Positions 1 to 12,338 of a DNA stretch of 64,000 bases are shown here, in pieces. The notes beneath the pieces are model-generated. The model was not told the origin of the DNA, did not search any database, and was given only the letters and a program-made list of their open reading frames with translations. Within the stretch, counting starts at the first letter, position 1; every line of letters begins with the position of its first letter. A program made the translations under genes and the position numbers. Source of the DNA: Longibaculum muris (GTDB lineage: Bacteria > Bacillota_I > Bacilli_A > Erysipelotrichales > Coprobacillaceae); the NCBI RefSeq assembly GCF_004343035.1, contig NZ_SMCQ01000003.1, positions 62,001 through 126,000 on the forward strand. Direction: 5' to 3'.

Positions 1-1106
1 GTGGCAACAATAGTTTGAAAACGTTCTAATTTTAATTGTTTTAATTGACTATAAAAATCATTTTGAATAGCTGTTTTGGACATACCTTTAGGTAAGTATC
101 CCATTGTTGTTCCAATATCATTAGCTATAAAAGCTTCCATTAATTGACTTTCGCTTCCTTGTCCCATACAAGCAATTGCTGCATCTTTTAAATCTTGTAA
201 AGATGGTAATGTTTCTTGATGCATAGCTGCTAGCATTTGTGCTAATTGCAGGGCTTCAATCACCTGCGCAGTTGAACAGTTATAACCATGTTCTCTTTGA
301 TATAAAGAGATTCTTGAAAGATAATCATAGGCAGCTTGTTTAGGTTGATTTTCTAACATATGTTGCCACAACAACTCATAATAAGCAGGTGCTTTATTTC
401 CAGCTCCATAACCAGAGAGTGATGATAAACGAAAATATGAATAAGGCATCAATGTACGATTGACTAATTTTTGATTGATTTTTTGATACTCATTATCACT
501 TAAACATGTTGCTTGTTGAATTCCTTCAATATGAAAAGCTCCACAAACCACAACAATATCATCTTCTAATAAACCTGTTTCCTTGATTTTTTCTATCGTG
601 GTTTTCATATAAGCTTCACGTAAACAAGTTTGCCCATCAGGTGGATTAAGCTCACGCAAGTGATGAGCAAACAAAGTTATTGCTTCTTTAAACTGAAATG
701 TATCATCTACATGCTCAAAAATACGTTCCCATTGATCATTAACATCCATATCCAAATCAATAACTTTATCTTGTTGTAATTGAGATTCTTCCATTGTTAA
801 AAAAGCTGATGAAGGTAAATCCATAAAAGCACAAGGAATATGATGTTGATAAGCCCATTTCATAGCAACATATTCTGGTGAATAATTAGCAAATGGATAT
901 AACAAAGATTGAATCGGTGTATCTATTGTATATGACATCATTGCAAAAGGTGGTATTAAATCATCTTGTACAATATCTTCTATCATATCATTACAATCAC
1001 TAGGTCCTTCAATTAAAACAAAGCGAGGCTTTTTTTGCTCAAGAAAATGCTTTAAGTGATAAGCCGATGCTGGTGATAAATGACGGATTCCAAAAATATT
1101 TTCCAT
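1..1106 (-). CDS. DUF5682 family protein, C-terminus beyond left edge
   Basis: The reading frame is open from an ATG at 1106 to the window edge, giving about 368 N-terminal residues. The start overlaps the stop of the MoxR ATPase gene (ATGA), so translation is probably coupled. The N-terminus (MENIFGIRHLSPASA, then VLIEGPSD) matches the opening of DUF5682 proteins as I know them, the family of E. coli YehM. No catalytic motif is recognised. It follows SWIM, HEAT-like and MoxR genes, the usual neighbourhood of this family; a VWA-domain partner would be expected further left, outside the window. The biochemical function is unknown. The family call is from memory and was not searched. Confidence 0.75.
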   Translation of the reverse strand, partial: MENIFGIRHLSPASAYHLKHFLEQKKPRFVLIEGPSDCNDMIEDIVQDDLIPPFAMMSYTIDTPIQSLLYPFANYSPEYVAMKWAYQHHIPCAFMDLPSSAFLTMEESQLQQDKVIDLDMDVNDQWERIFEHVDDTFQFKEAITLFAHHLRELNPPDGQTCLREAYMKTTIEKIKETGLLEDDIVVVCGAFHIEGIQQATCLSDNEYQKINQKLVNRTLMPYSYFRLSSLSGYGAGNKAPAYYELLWQHMLENQPKQAAYDYLSRISLYQREHGYNCSTAQVIEALQLAQMLAAMHQETLPSLQDLKDAAIACMGQGSESQLMEAFIANDIGTTMGYLPKGMSKTAIQNDFYSQLKQLKLERFQTIVA

Positions 1107-2194
1107 CACTGATTAAGCTCCATGCAAGCATGGTAAAGATCATAATAAGACATGCCTTTTTTCTTTAAAATATTTTCTAAATATTCCTTCCAAGCCAATG
1201 CATCTTTTGATTCATCCTTTACAATTGCTCCCTGTAATCCTGCAGCAACATCTTGAACACGGATTTTCCCATCACCAAAGCTAGCTGCTAATGCCATACT
1301 ATTAGCTAATAAAGAAATCGCTTCAGCCGAAGATAAAACCCCCGTTGTTGTTTTGACTTTTTGTTTACCATCTATTGTTATTCCATTTCTTAACTCTCTA
1401 AAAATAGTTACAACGCGTTCAATAACATCTACACTAGGAACTTTAGCTTGTAAACCAAGTGAAGCAGATAATTGTCCAACACGTTGTTCAACAATCTCCA
1501 TTTCTGTCTTTAAATCTTTAGGGGCTGGTAAAACAACAATATTAAAACGACGTTTTAACGCTGCTGACATATCATTAACACCTTTATCTCTTGTATTGGC
1601 TGTTGCAATTAAAGAGAAACCTCTTTTTGCAGGAATTTCCATATTTAACTCAGGAATAGAAACACGTTTTTCTGATAGAATAGAAATTAAGGCATCTTGC
1701 ACTTCACTAGCACAACGACTTATTTCTTCAAAACGAACAATGCTACCTGTTTCCATAGCGTTTAACAATGGACTTTTCACTAAGGCTTCTTCACTTGGAC
1801 CTTTAGCAATCAACATCGCATAATTCCATGAATAACGAATTGCTTCTTCACTTGTTCCTGCTGTTCCTTGAATCACTTTTGTAGAATCACCATTGATGGC
1901 AGCACATAGATGTTCACTTAACCAAGATTTTGCTGTTCCTGGTTCACCAATTAAAAGCAAGGCGCGGTCAGTTACAAGTGTGGCAATCGCAATTTCAACC
2001 AAACGCTCATTTCCAATATATTTAGGAGTAATGTCCATATTCCCACTTTTACCTCCACAAATATAAGTTAAAACTGAACGTGGTGACATCTTCCATCCTT
2101 CAGGGATAGGATATTTTTCATTTTTAATTAAGGTCTCTATTTCTAATTGAAATAGGATTTCAGCAGGTAAACGTTGATATTCTTGTTGATTCAT
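1106..2194 (-). CDS. MoxR-family AAA+ ATPase (YehL-like)
   Basis: This 362-residue AAA+ ATPase has Walker A GEPGTAKS at residues 83-90, a Walker B-like VRFEEI at about 153-158, a sensor-1 asparagine in IATANTRD at about 197-204, and an arginine-finger region LKRRFN. The layout is that of MoxR ATPases, which usually act as chaperone-like remodelling machines with a VWA-domain partner. ATG 2194 directly follows the TAA of the HEAT-like gene and its stop overlaps the DUF5682 start, so the genes form one operon. The SWIM and DUF5682 neighbours place it nearest E. coli YehL. The substrate is unknown. Confidence 0.9.
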   Translation of the reverse strand: MNQQEYQRLPAEILFQLEIETLIKNEKYPIPEGWKMSPRSVLTYICGGKSGNMDITPKYIGNERLVEIAIATLVTDRALLLIGEPGTAKSWLSEHLCAAINGDSTKVIQGTAGTSEEAIRYSWNYAMLIAKGPSEEALVKSPLLNAMETGSIVRFEEISRCASEVQDALISILSEKRVSIPELNMEIPAKRGFSLIATANTRDKGVNDMSAALKRRFNIVVLPAPKDLKTEMEIVEQRVGQLSASLGLQAKVPSVDVIERVVTIFRELRNGITIDGKQKVKTTTGVLSSAEAISLLANSMALAASFGDGKIRVQDVAAGLQGAIVKDESKDALAWKEYLENILKKKGMSYYDLYHACMELNQ

Positions 2195-4141
2195 TTAGAT
2201 TATTTCCTCACTTTCTTCATAACGATTAATAGCATTTTCAATTTCATAAAATTGCCATGCATAATCACTTTTTGTTTTCTTCTTTAAATAAGTTAAGATT
2301 TCTTTTAAAACATATAAACCATCATTTTTATTACAGAATGTTTCACACATTGAAACCATTTGATGATAAGATATACGATTACCGCTTAAAAATGTATTTT
2401 GTTTTTTAAAATAAGCGAGTAAATCATCTCTTAATGGTAATTGATATAATTTTTCAATATACAAATGACAAGCTGTAGATTTATGTTGTTCAAAATATGC
2501 AATCAAAGTATCTTTAAGTTCTAAATTATCCTTTGAAGCCAAATGAACCATAATACAGCTACATAATGGAATTTCATTACCATAGACTATCATTTCTTCT
2601 TTTTTAAACAATCCTTTTGTTATTTGTTGTTTTCCTAATAACAAATCAATCCAACGATGATCTAATTCATCACCTAAAACAATAGTTATAACTTCTGTTT
2701 TTAATGGATATGATATCAGTTTTGAACGATAGACATATTGTTTTGTTTCTTGGTCATATTCAACATATTGGAAGATACGTGAATAAAAATCTCTTGGTTT
2801 TTGACAGTCAATGAGCGTTGTTAATGTTTCATAAGCATGTTTATAATCTTTAATCAATAACATTCGTGCATAAGCTGATGTCATGAATTGTGGATAACGT
2901 TCATAAAGTGTCTTTATTAAAGTTTCACTTTCTTCATTTTGATAAACCAAATAGGTATTCAAGATAACTTCTGCAACATATTCTGCGATTGTGTAACGAT
3001 TATTTTCAAGTTCCATATAGCTCAATGGAGTTACATTGCTATAATTATCCAATTGAACAAATAAATGTTGTTGACTATCCTTGACCATACATAACTTATC
3101 ATCATGATCAAATATCCAAGCAACAATATCAATAATTTGTGGACCTGTTTTATATGCTAATAAAGATAATTTTTTTATGATTTCAACTGCTTCTTTATCT
3201 GTTTCAATTTGCTGATATTTCATTATTTTAGATAATTGTTGTTGAATATCTTCACATATTATTTGCTTAATATCCTCATTGTTAGAATAGAGTGTATAAA
3301 ACAAAGTCTTTTGACTTTTCTTCATTTTCTTCAATAAATACTTATCTACTTCATCATCTTGGATATGACTCAATGCATAAAGTGCATATTCCTTTAATTT
3401 TCCTCTTTCTACATCAGCTATATTCATTAAAAAATCTCGATTTGTAGAGTTGTAAGATAATCCTATAATGATTTGCTTTTGAATATCTGTTTGAGATAAA
3501 GGATACATATCTAAATAAAATTGGTTTTCATCTTTACCAGCTAATTCTACAATCAAACTAATTCTTCTTAACATTTCTTTTTTACCACTAGGATTAAAGT
3601 TTTCTTTTAAAAGAGGTACAACTTTCTTACCACAGCTTTTTAAAATATCCACACATAAATTAGCGATTTCAGAATAAGAATCACCTAATCCGGCAATGAC
3701 ATAAGGTAAAACACGATAATCTTGAAATAAATCAGGATATTTATTCCAAGTTGATAAAATGATTTCATAGCGACCACTTCCTGGTTGACTTAATGCTTGA
3801 ATCAATGGTTTTAATTGTGAATACTTGATATTGGTATAAGGTTTTTCCGTAAGAATTGTAATATCATAGGTATCTTCTTCATATTTCCATTGTGCCTGTG
3901 TCATAATTAAAGCATCTAAAAAAGACATAGCTTCCATAATATTGTTTTCTAAATGGTCTTGATCATTAAATATTGCTAGACAAAGATTATAGAGCTTTTG
4001 AAATACAGGTGATTTTTGAGCCAATGCCTCAACCTTTTTTAAAAGGATCGGAAGGCGTTCATCACTCAACAAAATATGACTACCTGCAATCAAGCCTGTT
4101 TGAAAGCGTGATTGTAATTCTAATAAAATTTGTTGTAACAT
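2195..4141 (-). CDS. HEAT-repeat-like protein of the MoxR/SWIM operon
   Basis: A 648-residue cytoplasmic protein with no signal peptide or transmembrane segment. It is rich in amphipathic helix pairs typical of HEAT/ARM solenoids, clearest in the first half (for example LPYVIAGLGDSYSEIANLC and EYALYALSHIQDDEVDKYL). No enzymatic motif is visible. The frame could start at GTG 4150, but ATG 4141 lies 8 bases after AGGAGG and is preferred. It sits between the SWIM gene (12 bases away) and the MoxR gene (adjacent), so it probably scaffolds or delivers substrate in the same complex; that role is inferred from position. A DUF5691-type relationship is possible but unverified. Confidence 0.75.
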   Translation of the reverse strand: MLQQILLELQSRFQTGLIAGSHILLSDERLPILLKKVEALAQKSPVFQKLYNLCLAIFNDQDHLENNIMEAMSFLDALIMTQAQWKYEEDTYDITILTEKPYTNIKYSQLKPLIQALSQPGSGRYEIILSTWNKYPDLFQDYRVLPYVIAGLGDSYSEIANLCVDILKSCGKKVVPLLKENFNPSGKKEMLRRISLIVELAGKDENQFYLDMYPLSQTDIQKQIIIGLSYNSTNRDFLMNIADVERGKLKEYALYALSHIQDDEVDKYLLKKMKKSQKTLFYTLYSNNEDIKQIICEDIQQQLSKIMKYQQIETDKEAVEIIKKLSLLAYKTGPQIIDIVAWIFDHDDKLCMVKDSQQHLFVQLDNYSNVTPLSYMELENNRYTIAEYVAEVILNTYLVYQNEESETLIKTLYERYPQFMTSAYARMLLIKDYKHAYETLTTLIDCQKPRDFYSRIFQYVEYDQETKQYVYRSKLISYPLKTEVITIVLGDELDHRWIDLLLGKQQITKGLFKKEEMIVYGNEIPLCSCIMVHLASKDNLELKDTLIAYFEQHKSTACHLYIEKLYQLPLRDDLLAYFKKQNTFLSGNRISYHQMVSMCETFCNKNDGLYVLKEILTYLKKKTKSDYAWQFYEIENAINRYEESEEII

Positions 4142-4153
4142 TTTCAACACCTC

Positions 4154-5554
4154 CTAATAAAGTAGACGAACAATCTGTTCGTTACTAATAAGACTCATCG
4201 GTTTTGCTAATAAATGATGTGTATGATAATCATAAGAAAAAATAACTAAAGCACACTGTTTTGATAGTAGATTTTGTGAAGGGAGTGTTGTCAATGCATG
4301 TAATGATGTTCTTTCCATCGCTGTAAGTTTTAATTGATGATTGAATTCATCCACCATAACAAAATCATCTTGGTTTTGTTTGATTTGATCATAAGCCAAT
4401 ATAATTGCTATTTCTTGATCACATAAAGGATTTTTCAATTGATTTTTGACTTCCTTTATAACTTGTTCAAAATCTATTTTGGCAATTTCTCGTATATGTA
4501 CATAATCTTGTGCTTCAATATCACAAGTTGTAAAGTTTTCATCATAACGCATACGACGATTGTTAACTCCAGGATAGAGATATAAACAGGATGTTCTCAC
4601 TTTTTCTAAAACACTGTCATCTTCTTTTATGTATTTAGCAACTTTTAAAGGGCGCATATTGACTGTTTTATGTATCTCTTGGAGAGGGTGAACATACCAA
4701 TAACCAATTTGTAATGTATCTTCATTTTTACTACAAAATCCTAATTGTATGAATTCTTGGTTTTCTTCATAAAAACCAGCTTCTTTTAATTCTTTTAAAT
4801 TCCAAACATGTCCTAGTAATTCATCCATGATTTGATCATCCTGCGTAATTTCTTCTTCATTTATTTTCTTATCTAAATATTGTTTTCCTTTTTTAACAAT
4901 TTGATAAAGACGAAGCATGTTTGCAATTACACCATCATAAACAGCATCACTAGTCAATGCATTTTTCGCTTCAATAACAAGTTCTAAGATGAGACGTTGG
5001 ATTCCAGGTAAAAAATAATCATTCATTTGTTTTGCTATATTTTCATAATCTTTTAGTTGACTATTCACAAAAGCAGCAACTCCCATTCGTGTGATATCCT
5101 GCAACATTGTTTCACAGACAAACAACCCTTCTTTTTGTTTCATCCAACGTTTCTTTTGTCCTGTTTTATTAACTTTTTTAGGCTTTTTCTCTGTATTATC
5201 TTTAGGTTGAGCACGTTTTATAAGGCGTTCTCTTTTTTTTACAATATCTTCAGGAATTTCACAAATCTCAAAATTTGCTTTATCTTCAATAGCAAATAAT
5301 AATCCAATGCTATGTTTACAAGGAAATTGTCTACTAGGACAATTACAACGAAAGATTGGATGAGATTGATCCTGAAAATCAACAGAAGTGATATAATTTT
5401 TACTTCCGCTACCAAGACATTCTCCCATATAAAAAGTCTCATCTGCTGAACGATATAATTTTATAAATTTACCACTTTGATAAATAGCTCTCCCATTTTT
5501 TAATGCATTTGCATTCACTGCTTGTTCTTCTATCCAAGCAACATTTATGCTCAT
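4154..5554 (-). CDS. SWIM zinc-finger protein (YehQ-like)
   Basis: A 466-residue protein with a SWIM zinc finger near the N-terminus: C70-x-C72 followed by C79-x-H81 (FRCNCPSRQFPCKHSIG), the CxC...CxH signature. A lysine-rich linker lies at about 115-140; the remainder is unassigned. An in-frame ATG exists at 5569, but GGGAGG lies between it and ATG 5554, so 5554 is chosen. It is first in the operon with the HEAT-like, MoxR and DUF5682 genes. SWIM domains bind DNA or protein, but which applies here is unknown. The gene order parallels the E. coli yeh group, with the extra HEAT-like gene as the main difference. Confidence 0.88.
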   Translation of the reverse strand: MSINVAWIEEQAVNANALKNGRAIYQSGKFIKLYRSADETFYMGECLGSGSKNYITSVDFQDQSHPIFRCNCPSRQFPCKHSIGLLFAIEDKANFEICEIPEDIVKKRERLIKRAQPKDNTEKKPKKVNKTGQKKRWMKQKEGLFVCETMLQDITRMGVAAFVNSQLKDYENIAKQMNDYFLPGIQRLILELVIEAKNALTSDAVYDGVIANMLRLYQIVKKGKQYLDKKINEEEITQDDQIMDELLGHVWNLKELKEAGFYEENQEFIQLGFCSKNEDTLQIGYWYVHPLQEIHKTVNMRPLKVAKYIKEDDSVLEKVRTSCLYLYPGVNNRRMRYDENFTTCDIEAQDYVHIREIAKIDFEQVIKEVKNQLKNPLCDQEIAIILAYDQIKQNQDDFVMVDEFNHQLKLTAMERTSLHALTTLPSQNLLSKQCALVIFSYDYHTHHLLAKPMSLISNEQIVRLLY

Positions 5555-6002
5555 TTGTTTTCCTCCCATCTTATCCTATATTTTATATATCATAAATCTA
5601 TTTTAACATATATAGAGAATAAATAGTATAAGAGTTAAATTTGTAAAAAACTTACCAATTAAAAAGTATTTTTTCCATCTACTTTACGCATCAAAAGATA
5701 AATTTTAATTAAAAAATCTAGCGATATGTAACAATAACATTTAAAGCTTAAAAATACTGACATTTACTATTTATTACCTATAAAAAATATCATCCAAGAA
5801 AAAAATCATAAAAACGATATAATTGAAATAAAAAATCTATTATCAGTTGTAGATTAAAAAAACAATTCCTATAGCAAATGGATGTTATCGTGAAATAGAT
5901 ATTAGAAATCATAAATACAGAGATTTACTAGCCAAAGAATATGCCTTCTGTCAAAAAATATGATTTTTAGTAAAACAACTATAAAAAAAGTTTAACTAAC
6001 GT
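5555..6002. other. AT-rich gap with a possible gene remnant
   Basis: No intact gene is present. On the plus strand, about 5866-5962 reads open as KTIPIANGCYREIDIRNHKY followed by a further dozen codons before TGA. This looks protein-like but has no start and no recognisable family, so it may be a relic. The part next to 5570 should hold the promoter of the SWIM operon, but I found no convincing -35/-10 pair. Confidence 0.3.
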
Positions 6003-6118: not shown

Positions 6119-6163
6119 TGGCGTCCTTGAGCGGATTCGAACCGCTGACCTTTCGCTTAGGAG
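6119..6163 (-). tRNA. 3' half of a split tRNA-Arg(CCU)
   Basis: The minus strand reads from the anticodon loop (CTCCTAA) through the anticodon-stem 3' strand GCGAA, the variable loop, a perfect T arm (AGCGG-TTCGAAT-CCGCT), acceptor strand CAAGGAC, discriminator G and CCA. The 5' half is missing here; sequence upstream of CTCCTAAG does not fold. The missing half is at 12234-12273: its GTCTTTG pairs with CAAGGAC (one G-T), and its TTCGC pairs with GCGAA. An insertion in the anticodon loop therefore separated the halves. No functional tRNA can come from this piece alone. Confidence 0.88.
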
Positions 6164-6415
6164 ATTAGAAAATTCATGTTTCTTAAATCACTTAAAATGC
6201 TCTAAAAGCCCTTGTTTTATCACGCTTTTTCTTTGTTTTATGTTCCTTTAATACCCTCATGTTTTCTAAGTGTTTCTATGGTATTTTGGGGTGTTTGTTG
6301 AAAGAATATTGAAATATTCAAGTTGCACCCTATTGTTGATAAGTTGTGCCCTTTTGTTGAAATATATTTATATGTTAGTGAACATTATCCTATTTTTAAT
6401 CAAAAAAGCATAAAA
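6164..6415. other. Left-end island DNA with GTTGA-type repeats
   Basis: No gene is seen. Around 6330-6375 two related motifs occur, GCACCCTATTGTTGAT and GCCCTTTTGTTGAAA. A third version, GCACCCCTGTGTTGAAA, lies near the other island end at about 11973-11990. Such repeats at both ends would fit arm-type integrase-binding sites, but this is an inference from resemblance only. Confidence 0.35.
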
Positions 6416-6447
6416 AGCCCACACAAAATATAAATTTTGTATGAGCT
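6416..6447 (-). terminator. Terminator at the end of the island surface-gene transcript
   Basis: Minus strand AGCTCATACAAAAT-TTAT-ATTTTGTGTGGGCT pairs with a few mismatches and is followed by TTTTTATG. It lies downstream of the surface-protein gene and the small remnant reading frame. Confidence 0.5.
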
Positions 6448-6626
6448 AATGAAATAACATATTCTGTTGTGAATGATAGGCTATAAAGGAGAGTTTTCTG
6501 ATGTCGATCTGTGCTTAAAGCGTTCCATATGGCTAGCCTCCTCTACGATGCCATATCGTCTTAAATCTTTAGTTTTGTTCGATCGGAAATCGTGCAGATG
6601 TATTCTTCTGGTGTTGGCACACGATT

Positions 6627-6764
6627 TCAAAAATAACTTTTGTAGTTTTCCTGTACTGCTGGATCTTGACTATTCATCTGTTCGTCGGTTATCGTCTGCA
6701 ATTCCACATGAAATTTCAACAGGGAAATTCCTCTGGCTTTTGCACCAACTCTCAATATGGACAT
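6627..6764 (-). pseudogene. Short reading frame, probable remnant of an element gene
   Basis: A 45-codon frame starts at ATG 6764 (MSILRVGAKARGISLLKFHV) and ends TGA. Composition looks protein-like, but no ribosome-binding site or family is recognised. It lies just downstream of the surface-protein gene on the same strand and is probably the start of a longer gene lost by deletion. It could also be chance coding. Confidence 0.3.
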
Positions 6765-6807
6765 TATATCACTTCTATATAATCTCATAGTCAGTCTCTG
6801 CTTTCTA

Positions 6808-9800
6808 TTAATTTTTTCTCATTTTACGTTTTCTGCTTGTGATAATGATAATGCCAAGAACTGATAGTACAGCAGTCATGTTCCACAAGAAGATGTTCGT
6901 TGCATCGCCAGTTTCAATAATAATCTGTTCATTGTCGCCTTTTTCTGGCTTATTAACAGTATCTTGTGAACCAGCTTTTTCCTTGACAGTTACTGTGATT
7001 GCTTTCGTTGCAGTTGCCTTCTGGCTGTCCACAACTTGATATATAATCTTATATGTTCCAGCCTTTGTCATATCCACTGTATTCTTAATCACCTTGATAT
7101 CTTTTGTTAAATTACCGTCCTCTTTATCAAATGCACTCACATCTTTCAACGGATCAAATTTATCTCCAACTGTAACAGTCTTATCTTTCGCTTGAATCGT
7201 TGGTATGCTGTTAAGTGGTATTATAGGTGCAACGACTTCAACAATGATATCAACCTCTACACTCTGATAATTATTTGTATCTTCTGGTGTGAAAATAGCT
7301 TTCAATGTATGTTTGCCTGATTCATCAAGCACCTTTGTATCATCTACCCATGCAAAGCCCTCTGGAAGTTTTACAGTAGATAATGTTTCGTTTTGCTTCA
7401 TCATTAAGCCTTGTGGAACGTCATAGACAGGCACAGCCTTTGTGATTTCAAATACTACAGTTTGTGTCAAGCCAGTATAATTTACATTACTAGCAACACT
7501 TGCCTTGACATAATATATACCAGCATTTGTTGGTACTTTATCATTATATGTTCCGTTTTTTTCATTACTGTAAGTAAATTCAACTGTTCCAAATTTTGCG
7601 CTTGCAGTTGGATTATTGGCATTATTTCCATATATCCAGTCAGTGATAGATAAATTTTCTTTCCACTCATTGTCGGCTTTGGAAATCACAAATTCTTTTT
7701 CCGTAGAAGCAGTGTTGCAATTATCATCAGCTTCTACACTGATAACAACCTTATAGCTCCCGACAACCTTAGGAGCAGATTTAAGTTTTGTATAAGTTCC
7801 ATCTGCTTCTTTCTGATACCACTTAAAATCAGGTGTTTTGCTACTTCCGGTTACTTTTATCTCTGGTTTAGCCATTTCTTGTCCGTCATAGACTTTATCC
7901 ATATTCTTTGTAGTAATCGTCACTTGACTATCTATCTTAGCAATCTCGAATGATGTCTTAGCTTCCAATCCTGTATAGTTTTCTGTTCCGGCAATACTTG
8001 CCTTAACATACCATATGCCAGCATTTGATGGTACATCACTTGTATATGTTCCGTTTTCTTTGTTACTGTAAGTAAATTCAACTGTTCCGAATTTCGCGCT
8101 TGCAGTTGGATTGTTAGCATTATTTCCATATGCCCAGTCAGCGATAGATAAATTTTCTGTCCACTCATTGTTGGCTTTGGAAATCACAAATTCTTTTTCC
8201 GTAGAAGTAGCGCTGTAGTTGTCATCAGCTTCAACACTGACAACAACCTTGTAGCTTCCGACAACCTTAGGAGCAGATTTAAGTTCTGTATAGCTTCCAT
8301 CTGCTTCTTTCTGATACCACTTAAAATCAGGTGTTTTGCTACTTCCGGTAACTTCTATCTCTGGTTTAGCCATTTCTTGTCCGTCATAGACTTTATCTAT
8401 GTTATTCACTTTCATTTCGACTAATGTATCTGCTTTTGATACTTCAACACTCAACTTACGTTCTACATATTGTTTTTGTGCATTATAGCCGGTTATACCT
8501 GTAAAATCATAATCTGTTTCGAGTTCTTTTGTATCAAAATGAGCCTTAAAACTCTTTGTACCTACCAATAGTGGTGTACCTTTATTTTCCCAAGTCCAGC
8601 CAGTAAGTAGGGTTACATCTTTTAATGTCTGTCCATAGATACCTGTTAAATTCGTTGGTTCATCGATTACATCTTTCCCATCTTTCTTTGTAGAAACAGT
8701 TGCTGTTATTTCAGCAGATTGTAAGTAAATACCTTTTCCTTGATAGCGGACAGATACTGTATGTTTTGAACCAGCTTCTAAATCAGATAATACAGGACTT
8801 GTTCCCCAAGTTCCACTATCCCATTGATACTCTATATCGCCATAGGTTACCACATCAAACGTGCCATTGACTGTCAGTGAGCTCTTTGTTCTTTTAATAT
8901 CATTTTCTGTAAAGTTTGGAGTTGGTGCTTGTGGCATAGGTGTTGCTTCTGTAAGTGTGATATTCACATCAGCGGTAGGAGTGCCAGAAATCTTAAAACC
9001 TGTATCTGTTGCCGTTGCAGTCAACCCATTCAAACCTTTAATACCGTCAATATATCCCTCAGGAAGATAATATTTATCAACTACTTCTACTGTTATATCT
9101 CTAATCGCACTACCTTGTACAACACCTTGTGTACCATTTGTAACAGTTAAATTATTGCCTGCTGTAATATTTACATCAAATCTTTGTTCTTCTGTCGCCA
9201 ACGTTGCATAGGTCATTCTATTTGTTGTATCTGTTGTTTCCAGCCATACTTTACAATTCGCAAAGCTGTCTAAACTCATATCCCTTGCAGAAACTTCTGT
9301 TTCATTTGTGATTTGTTTCGTCCATGCTCCATTACTGTTTTGTACTACTAAATATGTACCATTTGGAACACCTTTTAATTCTACTTTTGATTTATCATAA
9401 GAAACCAAGGCAGAGCCGAGTTTATCTGTTTTGTATCGCAAAGTGAATGCCCCTTGCCCATCGGTATCCTGCAATGCCAAATTTCCCTCAGATGATGCTG
9501 CTTGCGCAGCCGATGCAAAGATGACAGATGACAGATTTAATTCAAAGGCGGGCACCAGCATGTAAGACTCGCTAATTTGCCCAAAGGTCACACTATTATG
9601 CGGATCCGCGACCAACCCACTAAAACTATTATTAATGAACGGCGTACGAATCCAAAAAGCAACACTGTTTCCCCAATATTCCGAATCTATAAAAAGCCCA
9701 GTATTTAGAGCATTCGGTATATTGGTACCGACTGTAAGTTTGGAGTCAGAATCAGTTCCATAGGCAAGATATAGCTTATCGGTTGTAGAATACACAGTAT

Positions 9801-10302
9801 TGTTTTTCGTATCATTAGTATAGATTGTTGTATCTTTCATCAGATTTTGCTCTAATGTTGTAAAATAAGAACTTTCTAATTCTTTTAATGTATCTCTTAA
9901 AGGACTTGCTCCATAGTGATTTGGATAGACTTCATCTGGATCACTTGCATAATCACATTCCCAAGTTTCACTATATGTTTTATTAATATCCCAAGCAGGT
10001 TCAAACAACTGATCTGTTGCTAGTGGACTTGTCGCAAATAAAGTCAAACTATTCATTGTTTGACTTCCTGCAATCCACCATTGCTGAGCGTTATTACCGA
10101 AATAGACCTTGGCTGGATTTTTATTTCCGTCATTATTGTTTGTATTAAAGAGCATTAATTCATCTTTTATTGCAAATTGTGTATTGTCTGGCAGTTCTGC
10201 CGCATGAACCGGTGTACTTAGTTGTGGCAGCATGGTTAGGGTCATTGTCACCGCCAGCAGCAGAGCACTGGCTTTTTTCTTTAAATTCTGTAGTTTTTCC
10301 AT
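6808..10302 (-). CDS. Large cell-surface protein with Ig-like/MBG repeats and a sorting-type C-terminus
   Basis: A 1164-residue secreted protein. It begins with a classical signal peptide (MEKLQNLKKKASALLLAVTM, then a VHAAE cleavage region). A globular domain of about 350 residues follows, then Ig-like segments and two nearly identical MBG-type units containing KVYDGQEMAKPEI, and finally a DUF5011-like module (FDKEDGNLTKDIKV). The C-terminus has ETGD, a hydrophobic segment and RKRKMRKN, like sortase substrates with a degenerate motif in place of LPXTG. ATG 10302 has AAGGAG 8 bases upstream; ATG 10356 in frame is not preferred. It is the main intact cargo of the island and probably a wall-attached adhesin; the ligand is unknown. 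Confidence 0.85.
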   Translation of the reverse strand: MEKLQNLKKKASALLLAVTMTLTMLPQLSTPVHAAELPDNTQFAIKDELMLFNTNNNDGNKNPAKVYFGNNAQQWWIAGSQTMNSLTLFATSPLATDQLFEPAWDINKTYSETWECDYASDPDEVYPNHYGASPLRDTLKELESSYFTTLEQNLMKDTTIYTNDTKNNTVYSTTDKLYLAYGTDSDSKLTVGTNIPNALNTGLFIDSEYWGNSVAFWIRTPFINNSFSGLVADPHNSVTFGQISESYMLVPAFELNLSSVIFASAAQAASSEGNLALQDTDGQGAFTLRYKTDKLGSALVSYDKSKVELKGVPNGTYLVVQNSNGAWTKQITNETEVSARDMSLDSFANCKVWLETTDTTNRMTYATLATEEQRFDVNITAGNNLTVTNGTQGVVQGSAIRDITVEVVDKYYLPEGYIDGIKGLNGLTATATDTGFKISGTPTADVNITLTEATPMPQAPTPNFTENDIKRTKSSLTVNGTFDVVTYGDIEYQWDSGTWGTSPVLSDLEAGSKHTVSVRYQGKGIYLQSAEITATVSTKKDGKDVIDEPTNLTGIYGQTLKDVTLLTGWTWENKGTPLLVGTKSFKAHFDTKELETDYDFTGITGYNAQKQYVERKLSVEVSKADTLVEMKVNNIDKVYDGQEMAKPEIEVTGSSKTPDFKWYQKEADGSYTELKSAPKVVGSYKVVVSVEADDNYSATSTEKEFVISKANNEWTENLSIADWAYGNNANNPTASAKFGTVEFTYSNKENGTYTSDVPSNAGIWYVKASIAGTENYTGLEAKTSFEIAKIDSQVTITTKNMDKVYDGQEMAKPEIKVTGSSKTPDFKWYQKEADGTYTKLKSAPKVVGSYKVVISVEADDNCNTASTEKEFVISKADNEWKENLSITDWIYGNNANNPTASAKFGTVEFTYSNEKNGTYNDKVPTNAGIYYVKASVASNVNYTGLTQTVVFEITKAVPVYDVPQGLMMKQNETLSTVKLPEGFAWVDDTKVLDESGKHTLKAIFTPEDTNNYQSVEVDIIVEVVAPIIPLNSIPTIQAKDKTVTVGDKFDPLKDVSAFDKEDGNLTKDIKVIKNTVDMTKAGTYKIIYQVVDSQKATATKAITVTVKEKAGSQDTVNKPEKGDNEQIIIETGDATNIFLWNMTAVLSVLGIIIITSRKRKMRKN
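7440..8410 (-). repeat. Two tandem ~498-bp units inside the surface-protein gene
   Basis: Long stretches recur with a 498-bp (166-codon) offset, for example GGCTTTGGAAATCACAAATT at 7675 and again at 8173. The MBG-type unit with its flanking linker is therefore duplicated in frame. Edges are approximate. Near-identity at DNA level suggests recent duplication or gene conversion. Confidence 0.8.
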
Positions 10303-10425
10303 TTCATTCTTCTCCTTTTCTCGTATGTTCCTTTCCTGTTTTTTCACTATCCTCAATGTCTGTTATGGTTTCTATTTGGTTGTATGCCAAAAGAACAGAT
10401 TTTGTCTGTCAGTCTATCTGTCGCA

Positions 10426-10455
10426 AGCGTAGCAGTTTGTAAACATGGCTGTCAA
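10426..10455 (-). promoter_or_regulatory. Promoter candidate of the surface-protein gene
   Basis: Minus strand TTGACA (10455-10450), an 18-base spacer and TACGCT (10431-10426). The -35 is perfect and the -10 is weak. It lies about 125 bases before ATG 10302. Repeated CTGTC/GACAG words between 10401 and 10422 could be an operator. Confidence 0.5.
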
Positions 10456-10752
10456 CCACTTATTATAAATATTTATAGTGTTGTATAAGGCTTGATAGGC
10501 TTTAAATAAGTATATCATTTCCATTATCACATCACAATCGAAATAGACTAACAAGGCAAAATATCTAATAAAAGACAGCCTCAACAAAAAACAGATTATT
10601 CATGAGCAGGAAAAAGCAAGACAATACTGCTTGTTTATGTTCTTATACTATAATCTTTCCGTAGGATTCTTATGTAGCACAAGCTCAAACTGCGAAACTA
10701 AAGTTAGTTGCCTTTGTTTGAGTGTCTATGAATTTCGCGGCAACTTTGACTT
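10456..10752. other. Gene-free island DNA with coding debris
   Basis: No intact gene. Immediately after the parB remnant on the minus strand a short open stretch reads KVKVAAKFIDTQTKATNFSF and then stops. It is probably debris from a recombination or deletion that removed the rest of parB. Confidence 0.35.
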
Positions 10753-10989
10753 TCACATTGTTCCTTCAGCCGTAAACACAGGATTGGAATAAGAATCGCT
10801 TAATTCCATCATATCCTTATCTTCTCGCACTTTAAATGGATGATGAGGAAAGGCACTAATCGTATCAAGAGGAATATCAATAATTTTTATTGCATTATCC
10901 TCTCTTATTGACTGATCTGATTTAAACAGTATATCCTCATCGAGATTGAAATCGGGTATTTATACTGCGCTTAAAGGTTTTCTCGGCAT
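10753..10989 (-). pseudogene. parB: parB remnant (N-terminal part, interrupted)
   Basis: ATG 10989 follows a strong GGGAGGTGG site and overlaps the parA end. Translation gives MPRKPLSAV, an in-frame TAA, then IPDFNLDEDILFKSD, IIDIPLDTISAFPHHPFKV and MMELSDS, which resembles the N-terminal part of plasmid/ICE ParB nuclease-domain proteins. The homology ends abruptly after about 65 residues and the frame closes at 10753. The nonsense codon and the missing C-terminus mean no working ParB can be made. It originally formed a parAB partition operon. Confidence 0.7.
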
Positions 10990-11763
10990 TTTGTTCCACC
11001 TCCCTTGCTAAAGATAAATAGGCAAAAGCACCATCATTCTTCGGATCGTATGAGAAAATACTTTGACCAACACTAGATGCTTTGCTGATAGCAACACGTC
11101 GAGGAATACACTTTTTAAATACCGAAAAATGTTGCCCTACTTTTCGACAATCTGTCTTTGAATATTTCTTGACTGTGTTGTTCGATCATCAGTCATTGTA
11201 ATAAGAATACCTTCAACAGATAAATCCGGATTTATATCACGTTTTGTTTTTAAAATTGATGATATTAAATTCGTTGTACTTGAAGATGATAGATATTCTG
11301 ATTGTGTTGGGATAATCACACTATTAGCACAGGCAAACGCATTGATTGTTAGTTCACCCAAAGATGGACTGCAATCAATTAAAATATAATCGTAGTTATC
11401 TTTGAGTGGCGCAATAATATCTTTTAAAACAGTATCTTTGTTTTCAAGATTAGTAAGCGTTGTTTCAATTGCTGCTAAACGAGTGTTTGCAGGAATAAAA
11501 TCAAATCCTTCATCATTATGGAAGATACTTCCATAATCACATTGATCATTCACAATTACTTCAAGCATCATATTGCCTATATTTTTCTTGATTGTATCAA
11601 CATCATAACCTAATGCTTTACCTGAATCACCTTGAGGATCAAAATCAATCAGCAATACATTTTTCTTTTTCAAACTCAAGGCACTTGCTAAGTTAATACT
11701 TGTAGTTGTTTTACCAACACCGCCTTTTTGATTGGCAATTGCTATTATTTTTCCATATGTCAT
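10937..11763 (-). pseudogene. parA: parA ATPase, frameshifted near the C-terminus
   Basis: The N-terminal 208 residues are a good ParA/Soj ATPase: deviant Walker A KGGVGKTTT at residues 13-21, DFDPQGDSG at about 41-49 and ILIDCSPSLGEL. It stops after RQIVEK at 11137. The conserved remainder (FKKCIPRRVAISKASS, GQSIFSYDPKNDGAF, LAREVEQNAEKT) continues at once in another frame to 10937. Restoring one A in the run GAAAAG at about 11140 would join the frames. Either the gene is inactivated by a 1-base deletion or there is a homopolymer sequencing error. It begins with ATG 11763 after AAAGGAGG. Confidence 0.8.
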
Positions 11764-12092
11764 GTTTCACGACCTCCTTTCTTTTAAGACAACTTGAAAA
11801 GTTGGCTATGTAAATAAAAAACTATTCATCTAATGACAAATAGAATAAAATATGTTATGAATTTGTGTATTTAGTTCAAATATGTTCTCAAGTGCTCTTT
11901 AGGTGTATTGAATGTTCTAACGTATCTGTTGAAAACATTCAAAATTTGTTGAATTTTAATGTATAAAAAGGGCACCCCTGTGTTGAAAGAAAAAGGAGCA
12001 GTACAATCAATTTGTACAACTCCCTAATCTTAGGATAAATCCATTATCCTCTCTTAGTTAAATGGGCATAAAGCCCATAAAATAAGCTTAAT
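11764..12092. other. Island right-end non-coding DNA
   Basis: No gene. It holds the parA leader with the inverted repeat CAACTT-GAA-AAGTTG (about 11789-11804) and an integrase-arm-like repeat near 11973-11990. Three short hairpins follow: GTACAA...TTGTAC at about 12010, AGGATAA...TTATCCT at about 12032, and GGGC...GCCC at about 12064. The last could weakly terminate the tRNA transcript. Confidence 0.35.
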
Positions 12093-12169
12093 TGGTACTC
12101 CGGATGCGATTTGAACGCACGACCTATCGCTTAGGAGGCGATTGCTCTATCCACTGAGCTACCGAAGTA
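12093..12169 (-). tRNA. tRNA-Arg (anticodon CCU), intact, inside the island
   Basis: A complete 77-base cloverleaf with encoded CCA: acceptor TACTTCG/CGGAGTA (one G-T), D arm GCTC...GAGC, anticodon stem ATCGC/GCGAT around CTCCTAA, and T arm GTGCG-TTCAAAT-CGCAT. Anticodon CCU reads AGG. It lies about 65 bases inside the right core. With the chromosomal tRNA-Arg(CCU) split, this may be the functional supplier of that isoacceptor, unless further copies exist elsewhere. Confidence 0.95.
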
Positions 12170-12233
12170 TATGTGTGATAATTTGCCCTAAAACAGCTCA
12201 TAGGCAGGGAAATGGGGTGCGATTCGCTCTTTT

Positions 12234-12273
12234 CTTAGGAGGCGAATGCTCTATCCTACTGAGCTACAAAGAC
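12234..12273 (-). tRNA. 5' half of the split tRNA-Arg(CCU)
   Basis: The minus strand reads GTCTTTG, D arm GCTC-AGTAGGATA-GAGC, then anticodon-stem 5' strand TTCGC and loop CTCCTAA, after which tRNA homology breaks. The following bases (AAAAGAGCGAATCGCACCCC) cannot complete the anticodon stem next to the loop and contain only a rudimentary T-arm-like piece. The matching 3' half is at 6119-6163. The chimeric RNA made here should not fold into a tRNA. Confidence 0.88.
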
Positions 12274-12338
12274 ATTAAGCATGTTAAAATAACAACATGT
12301 TTATTCTAACATGGCTTAATAAAAAATTCAATTATGAT

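Follow-up and report, generated by a model that had tools for sequence, protein, structure and literature searches.

A divided tRNA-Arg(CCU) gene and the island between its halves

The locus described here lies in Longibaculum muris, in a 64-kb window (the whole stretch of DNA analysed, G000:C3:62001-126000) within a 3.17-Mb assembly. On the minus strand of this window, the anticodon loop of a native tRNA-Arg(CCU) gene is interrupted, with the 5′ half of the gene at 12273-12234 and its 3′ half at 6163-6119, and a 6-kb island occupies the space between them (Table 1). The two halves have in common an 8-bp core, CTTAGGAG (6156-6163 = 12234-12241), and joining 6119-6155 to 12234-12273 through this core generates a 77-nt sequence that ARAGORN calls as tRNA-Arg(CCT) and in which all 12 of 12 acceptor-stem and anticodon-stem pairs form. 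A preliminary description of this DNA had proposed that the two halves rebuild one tRNA and that the same sequence is present at both junctions, and both proposals hold, with the coordinates given there exact.

Neither junction restores the gene. ARAGORN and Rfam detect no tRNA at either one, and the island sequence that follows the 5′ half (AAAAGAGCGAATCGC...) fails to complete the tRNA, as had been noted earlier for the right junction, so that the target is left without restoration by an identical 3′ part. It had also been reasoned that an intact copy of the same sequence elsewhere would mark the halves as old debris. The only 100% matches to the native sequence in the assembly are the two halves themselves; the intact CCU tRNA of this genome differs in sequence and sits within the island.

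Reading from the island tRNA, the order of features is ParA, an out-of-frame ParA C-terminus, a ParB N-terminus, a surface protein of 1182 aa, a small-gene pseudogene and, finally, the tRNA 3′ half. No integrase, relaxase, coupling protein, type IV secretion ATPase or other transfer gene was recognised among the ORFs of the 6-kb island, and these ORFs include no phage structural gene. The remnant at ~6481-6818 was considered as the end of a tyrosine integrase, an assignment that we dropped: Pfam and PHROGs gave it no support, and its homologues are a small protein of ICE regions. Used as a probe of genome contigs and viral contigs, the island ParA found distant matches only, and comparison of the island tRNA with phage and plasmid DNA returned ordinary tRNA similarity, apart from the Monoglobus record discussed below.

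Table 1 Features of the island and the flanking tRNA halves in window coordinates.
Feature	Coordinates	Strand	Evidence
Native tRNA-Arg(CCU) 3′ half, starting with the crossover core CTCCTAAG (6156-6163)	6119..6163	-	Joined-halves fold
Pseudogene of a small (~75 aa) protein of ICE-like regions	6481..6818	-	Over 51 aa, 53% identical to L158; a stop follows
Large surface protein bearing Ig-like/MBG domains, with the tail TGD-TM-RKRK at its C terminus (cargo)	6808..10356	-	Domain search; in the Monoglobus ICE, a SpaA-like surface protein follows ParB and one small ORF
ParB N-terminus, truncated	10753..10959	-	Over 50 aa, 40% identical to the ParB of L179
C-terminal part of ParA, out of frame	10937..11185	-	PHROG ParA-like, 8e-5, profile positions 424-475 of 500
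ParA partition ATPase, broken off before its C-terminal part	11137..11763	-	Pfam AAA_31, 2.2e-52; C-terminal segment continues in another frame
Complete island tRNA-Arg(CCU), sole intact CCU tRNA gene in the assembly	12093..12168	-	ARAGORN; Rfam tRNA, 66.8 bits; genome tRNA survey
Right end of the island, from 5′ half to island tRNA (~65 nt)	12169..12233	-	Sequence; gaps at homologous loci (see text)
Native tRNA-Arg(CCU) 5′ half, its 3′-terminal part being the crossover core CTCCTAAG (12234-12241)	12234..12273	-	Joined-halves fold; gene order shared with the tRNA-Arg(CCT) locus of the family
Native tRNA gene promoter-like site, TTGAAT-17-TAGAAT, -10 preceded by TG	12303..12331	-	Scan; consensus match only

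The island carries a complete tRNA, a probable replacement

Just inside the right junction, on the same strand as the native gene, the island carries a complete tRNA-Arg(CCU) that differs from the native gene in sequence. The preliminary description overlooked this gene; it held that integrative elements normally restore the tRNA they enter, that this one had not and that the target gene appeared truly disrupted. The lack of restoration stands, and the native gene is indeed broken and rebuilt at neither junction. Loss of tRNA-Arg(CCU) function, on the other hand, is unlikely, because the island brings its own complete copy, which probably replaces the broken gene.

Our survey of the assembly, an Rfam search together with ARAGORN on selected stretches, gave 51 tRNAs in the Rfam scan; the other arginine tRNAs have the anticodons ACG (in L047) and UCU (in L060), and no second intact CCU gene appeared besides the island copy. 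Because the survey contains no second CCU gene and the native gene is present only as halves, the island tRNA is the only intact CCU gene in this assembly. A promoter-like site lies 29 nt ahead of the native 5′ half, and a consensus scan of the gap before the island tRNA detects no comparable site. Together, these two features suggest that the island tRNA is expressed, probably by read-through from the native promoter-like site.

An alternative is that tRNA-Arg(CCU) has been truly inactivated, with the island tRNA as silent cargo and AGG codons read by tRNA-Arg(UCU). A tRNA-Arg(UCU) is present and might read AGG, so that the replacement tRNA would perhaps be non-essential, and the gap before the island tRNA offers no promoter-like site of its own. 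Against this, the island tRNA is structurally intact while ParA, ParB and the small ORF near it have decayed, the native promoter-like site is upstream of this tRNA, and its placement and orientation are conserved at homologous loci. We therefore regard silent carriage as improbable.

In the Monoglobus-type element, a near-consensus promoter-like site (TTGACA-17-TAAAAT) lies in the gap just before the element's own tRNA (L183:18372-18455, L293). As judged by consensus matches, most other elements, including the one in the window, have no such near-consensus site before their tRNAs. Given its own promoter-like site, the Monoglobus-type element may be independent of the host promoter.

An intact relative in Monoglobus is a conjugative element

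An intact homologous ICE of ~50 kb is present in Monoglobus pectinilyticus (NZ_OY725736.1). There, the host 5′ half GCCCTCTTAGTTAAGTGGATATAACAAGCCC runs into the core CTCCTAAG and is followed by a complete element tRNA-Arg(CCT). After this tRNA come ParA, ParB, a SpaA-like surface protein, SNF2, MobC, a relaxase and VirD4 (CD1115 family), and then VirB4 (CD1110 family), a sortase, tet(O/32/O), tet(40) and a tyrosine integrase (Phage_integrase, 5.7e-15), beyond which lies the host 3′ half CTCCTAAGGGCTAGTCACG...GGGTGCCA. The break in the Monoglobus host tRNA falls at the same 8 bp as in the window, and joining its halves gives a sequence that folds as tRNA-Arg(CCT). G057 (46 kb) and G215 (62 kb) also have, on one contig each, both halves together with a spare tRNA, ParA and an integrase; in G215, the integrase end and the ParA end have changed places, and the spare tRNA is still on the 5′-half side and points in the same direction. 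The two tetracycline-resistance genes of the Monoglobus element are cargo, at L188:13882-17069. A genome of the window's own family, G038, encodes an integrase 100% identical to that of the Monoglobus element.

The window island shares with the Monoglobus ICE the core, the spare tRNA and the order of ParA, ParB and surface protein. It differs from this intact element in having neither integrase nor transfer genes, and is thus at most a decayed derivative. The ParA proteins of the two are only ~47% identical, so kinship with the intact ICE rests on gene order and site; because the window island has no integrase, its membership in the family likewise rests on the site, the placement of the tRNA and gene order. 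The window contains a split gene, a foreign intact tRNA that is the sole CCU tRNA, and element remnants, and its intact homologues have the same layout. We are highly confident that the island is the decayed remnant of an ICE, that integration at CTCCTAAG split the host tRNA gene and that the element's own complete tRNA-Arg(CCU) replaces the broken one.

A decayed prophage or phage satellite could in principle leave a similar trace, as phages have been described whose integration depends on a tRNA of their own (PMC10865867), and phages can also encode ParA. This origin is very unlikely: the island has no phage structural gene, its tRNA, ParA, ParB and surface protein stand in the same order in an ICE with a relaxase, VirD4 and VirB4, and no relative of the Monoglobus ICE integrase was found in viral contigs.

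The host locus across the family

The genes to the right of the island (PAP2, cysE, MATE, phosphatase, glycosyltransferase and exonuclease) adjoin tRNA-Arg(CCT) in at least six other genera, and the syntenic tRNA gene is uninterrupted in several of them (for example, G026, G027, G029, G010 and G019). Gene order thus places the native 5′ half at the family's tRNA-Arg(CCT) locus. In the relative with the closest gene order, G033, the decayed relic of a 5′ half lies 50-90 nt before an intact tRNA (L178:8421-8465); 32 of its 40 bases match a typical 5′ half, and there is no element in between. This relic is likely to be the fossil of an earlier replacement, possibly one that has run to completion.

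Left of the island, positions 1106-5569 of the window encode a MoxR-like AAA ATPase and two proteins without assignment. A search of 42 other genomes of the family found no match to the protein encoded at 4154-5569, and the left flank may have been acquired separately, as a block of its own. At three loci (L221, L228 and L237), tRNA-Arg(CCT) is preceded at a distance of ~800-1000 nt by an intact tRNA-Arg(CCG), and at L224 tRNA-Arg(CCG) adjoins an integrase and a CCU 3′ half.

Element tRNAs travel with their elements and insertions stack

The Monoglobus integrase has 24 matches in 21 of the 316 genomes of the order (E ≤ 1e-50), and 22 of these matches adjoin a tRNA-Arg(CCT), a half or a relic. 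A systematic scan recovered a 5′ half followed by a complete tRNA from ~25 of the order's genomes and from two Clostridia records. Across homologous loci, the spare tRNA is conserved in placement and orientation and is separated from the 5′ half by gaps of mostly 31-87 nt.

One element, with the end GGCTAGGTGGAACAAACGCC and a single tRNA sequence, adjoins a different host half in each of G043, G054 and G040; another, with the end AATATGTTATAACGACCGCC, does so in each of Monoglobus, G002 and G038. Because identical element ends and tRNAs stand beside different host halves, the tRNA travels with the element. The matching of halves was controlled by exchange: nine cognate pairs from nine genomes each form 12 of 12 stem pairs, as against a mean of 8.9 of 12 for non-cognate pairings, and none of 20,000 permutations reaches the observed mean stem pairing, so that the matching of halves is not a product of chance. 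In five of the genomes with split genes (G013, G213, G038, G002 and G017), the halves lie on different contigs, and their pairing rests on the stem match.

Another reading is an old tandem pair of host tRNA genes, one of them split later by an unrelated insertion and the second not borne by the island; tandem tRNA genes are common, and only ~65 nt separate the second tRNA from the right junction. This reading has scant probability. The second tRNA is situated between the two halves and hence inside the insertion; in relatives, the same tRNA stays coupled to the same element end next to host halves that differ; and where relatives have the syntenic locus, it contains one tRNA-Arg(CCT) only.

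Four genomes (G218, G002, G205 and G232) have two halves before one complete tRNA, and the split ‘host’ gene of G038 is the element tRNA seen in G035. Double halves and this identity together indicate that later elements insert into the tRNAs of earlier elements. At the stacked loci L220, L261, L312 and L319, two successive 5′ halves, of host or element origin, precede a single complete tRNA-Arg(CCT).

Discussion

We propose that a tyrosine integrase recombines attP and attB at the 8-bp CTCCTAAG in the anticodon loop of tRNA-Arg(CCU). This reaction would split the host gene and restore neither end. As the loop sequence is common to most tRNA-Arg(CCU) genes, the remaining sequence of the host tRNA would not have to match the element. 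The complete tRNA of the element, positioned just inside the 5′-half end and in the same direction, would then lie downstream of the host promoter and could replace the broken gene. In the window, the integrase and transfer genes would have been lost after insertion, and selection would have kept the tRNA while neighbouring element genes decayed. More broadly, there is good reason to think that conjugative elements of one widespread family in gut Firmicutes break the single tRNA-Arg(CCU) gene and swap in a foreign one, repeatedly and by horizontal transfer. Insertions would stack, and decay of the element, of which the window is an example, would make the replacement permanent.

According to textbooks, an element that enters a tRNA gene restores it. 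In classical tRNA-targeting elements (genomic islands, ICEs and prophages, under the Islander rule), the target is restored by an identical 3′ part (PMC4383910). The elements described here resemble these in having a tRNA gene as target, a tyrosine integrase and direct repeats at their ends. By contrast, they restore neither junction and supply a whole foreign tRNA gene.

A closer parallel is tRNA-dependent lysogeny in mycobacteriophages such as Fionnbharth and those of Cluster L (Guerrero-Bustamante and Hatfull 2024, PMC10865867), which is characterized by a tyrosine integrase, a core of ~10 bp in a host tRNA gene, failure to rebuild either junction and an element tRNA of the same isotype that then serves in its place. 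The window island likewise has a short core (8 bp), two unrestored junctions and a complete tRNA of the same isotype; unlike the phages, it has no tyrosine integrase that we could find, and this gene is present in its intact relatives. There are further differences. The mycobacteriophages are temperate, infect Actinobacteria and use tRNA-Lys(UUU) and other loci, whereas we find ICEs of gut Firmicutes at tRNA-Arg(CCU). Moreover, the spare tRNA is found here within ~30-90 nt of the 5′ half of the host gene and is aligned with the host promoter, and the inserted elements both stack and decay. The authors of that study asked how common tRNA-dependent integration is outside actinobacterial phages, and the word ‘conjugative’ does not occur in their paper (PMC10865867). 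As cited there, prophage Lj965 of Lactobacillus johnsonii fails to rebuild its tRNA target and encodes the cognate tRNA. On that description, Lj965 is like the window island a Firmicute element with a cognate tRNA and is unlike it in being a prophage. Literature searches of partial coverage, and hence weak evidence of absence, found no ICE carrying a replacement tRNA.

Our comparisons suggest that tRNA-dependent integration extends to conjugative elements of gut bacteria, some with tetracycline-resistance genes. There are several implications. First, these elements target little beyond the anticodon loop, a sequence that most tRNA-Arg(CCU) genes have in common; because the remainder of the host tRNA need not match, host range may widen. 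Second, such integration would be a route by which a foreign gene replaces a host tRNA gene, and in the decayed case in the window the foreign tRNA would have become the host's gene. Finally, half-tRNA relics, which annotation ignores, would thereby be explained.

On one viral contig with a matching stretch of tRNA sequence (L155:2241-3553), a tyrosine integrase adjoins an intact tRNA-Arg(CCT) of the ordinary kind, possibly as part of a conventional prophage at the same tRNA.
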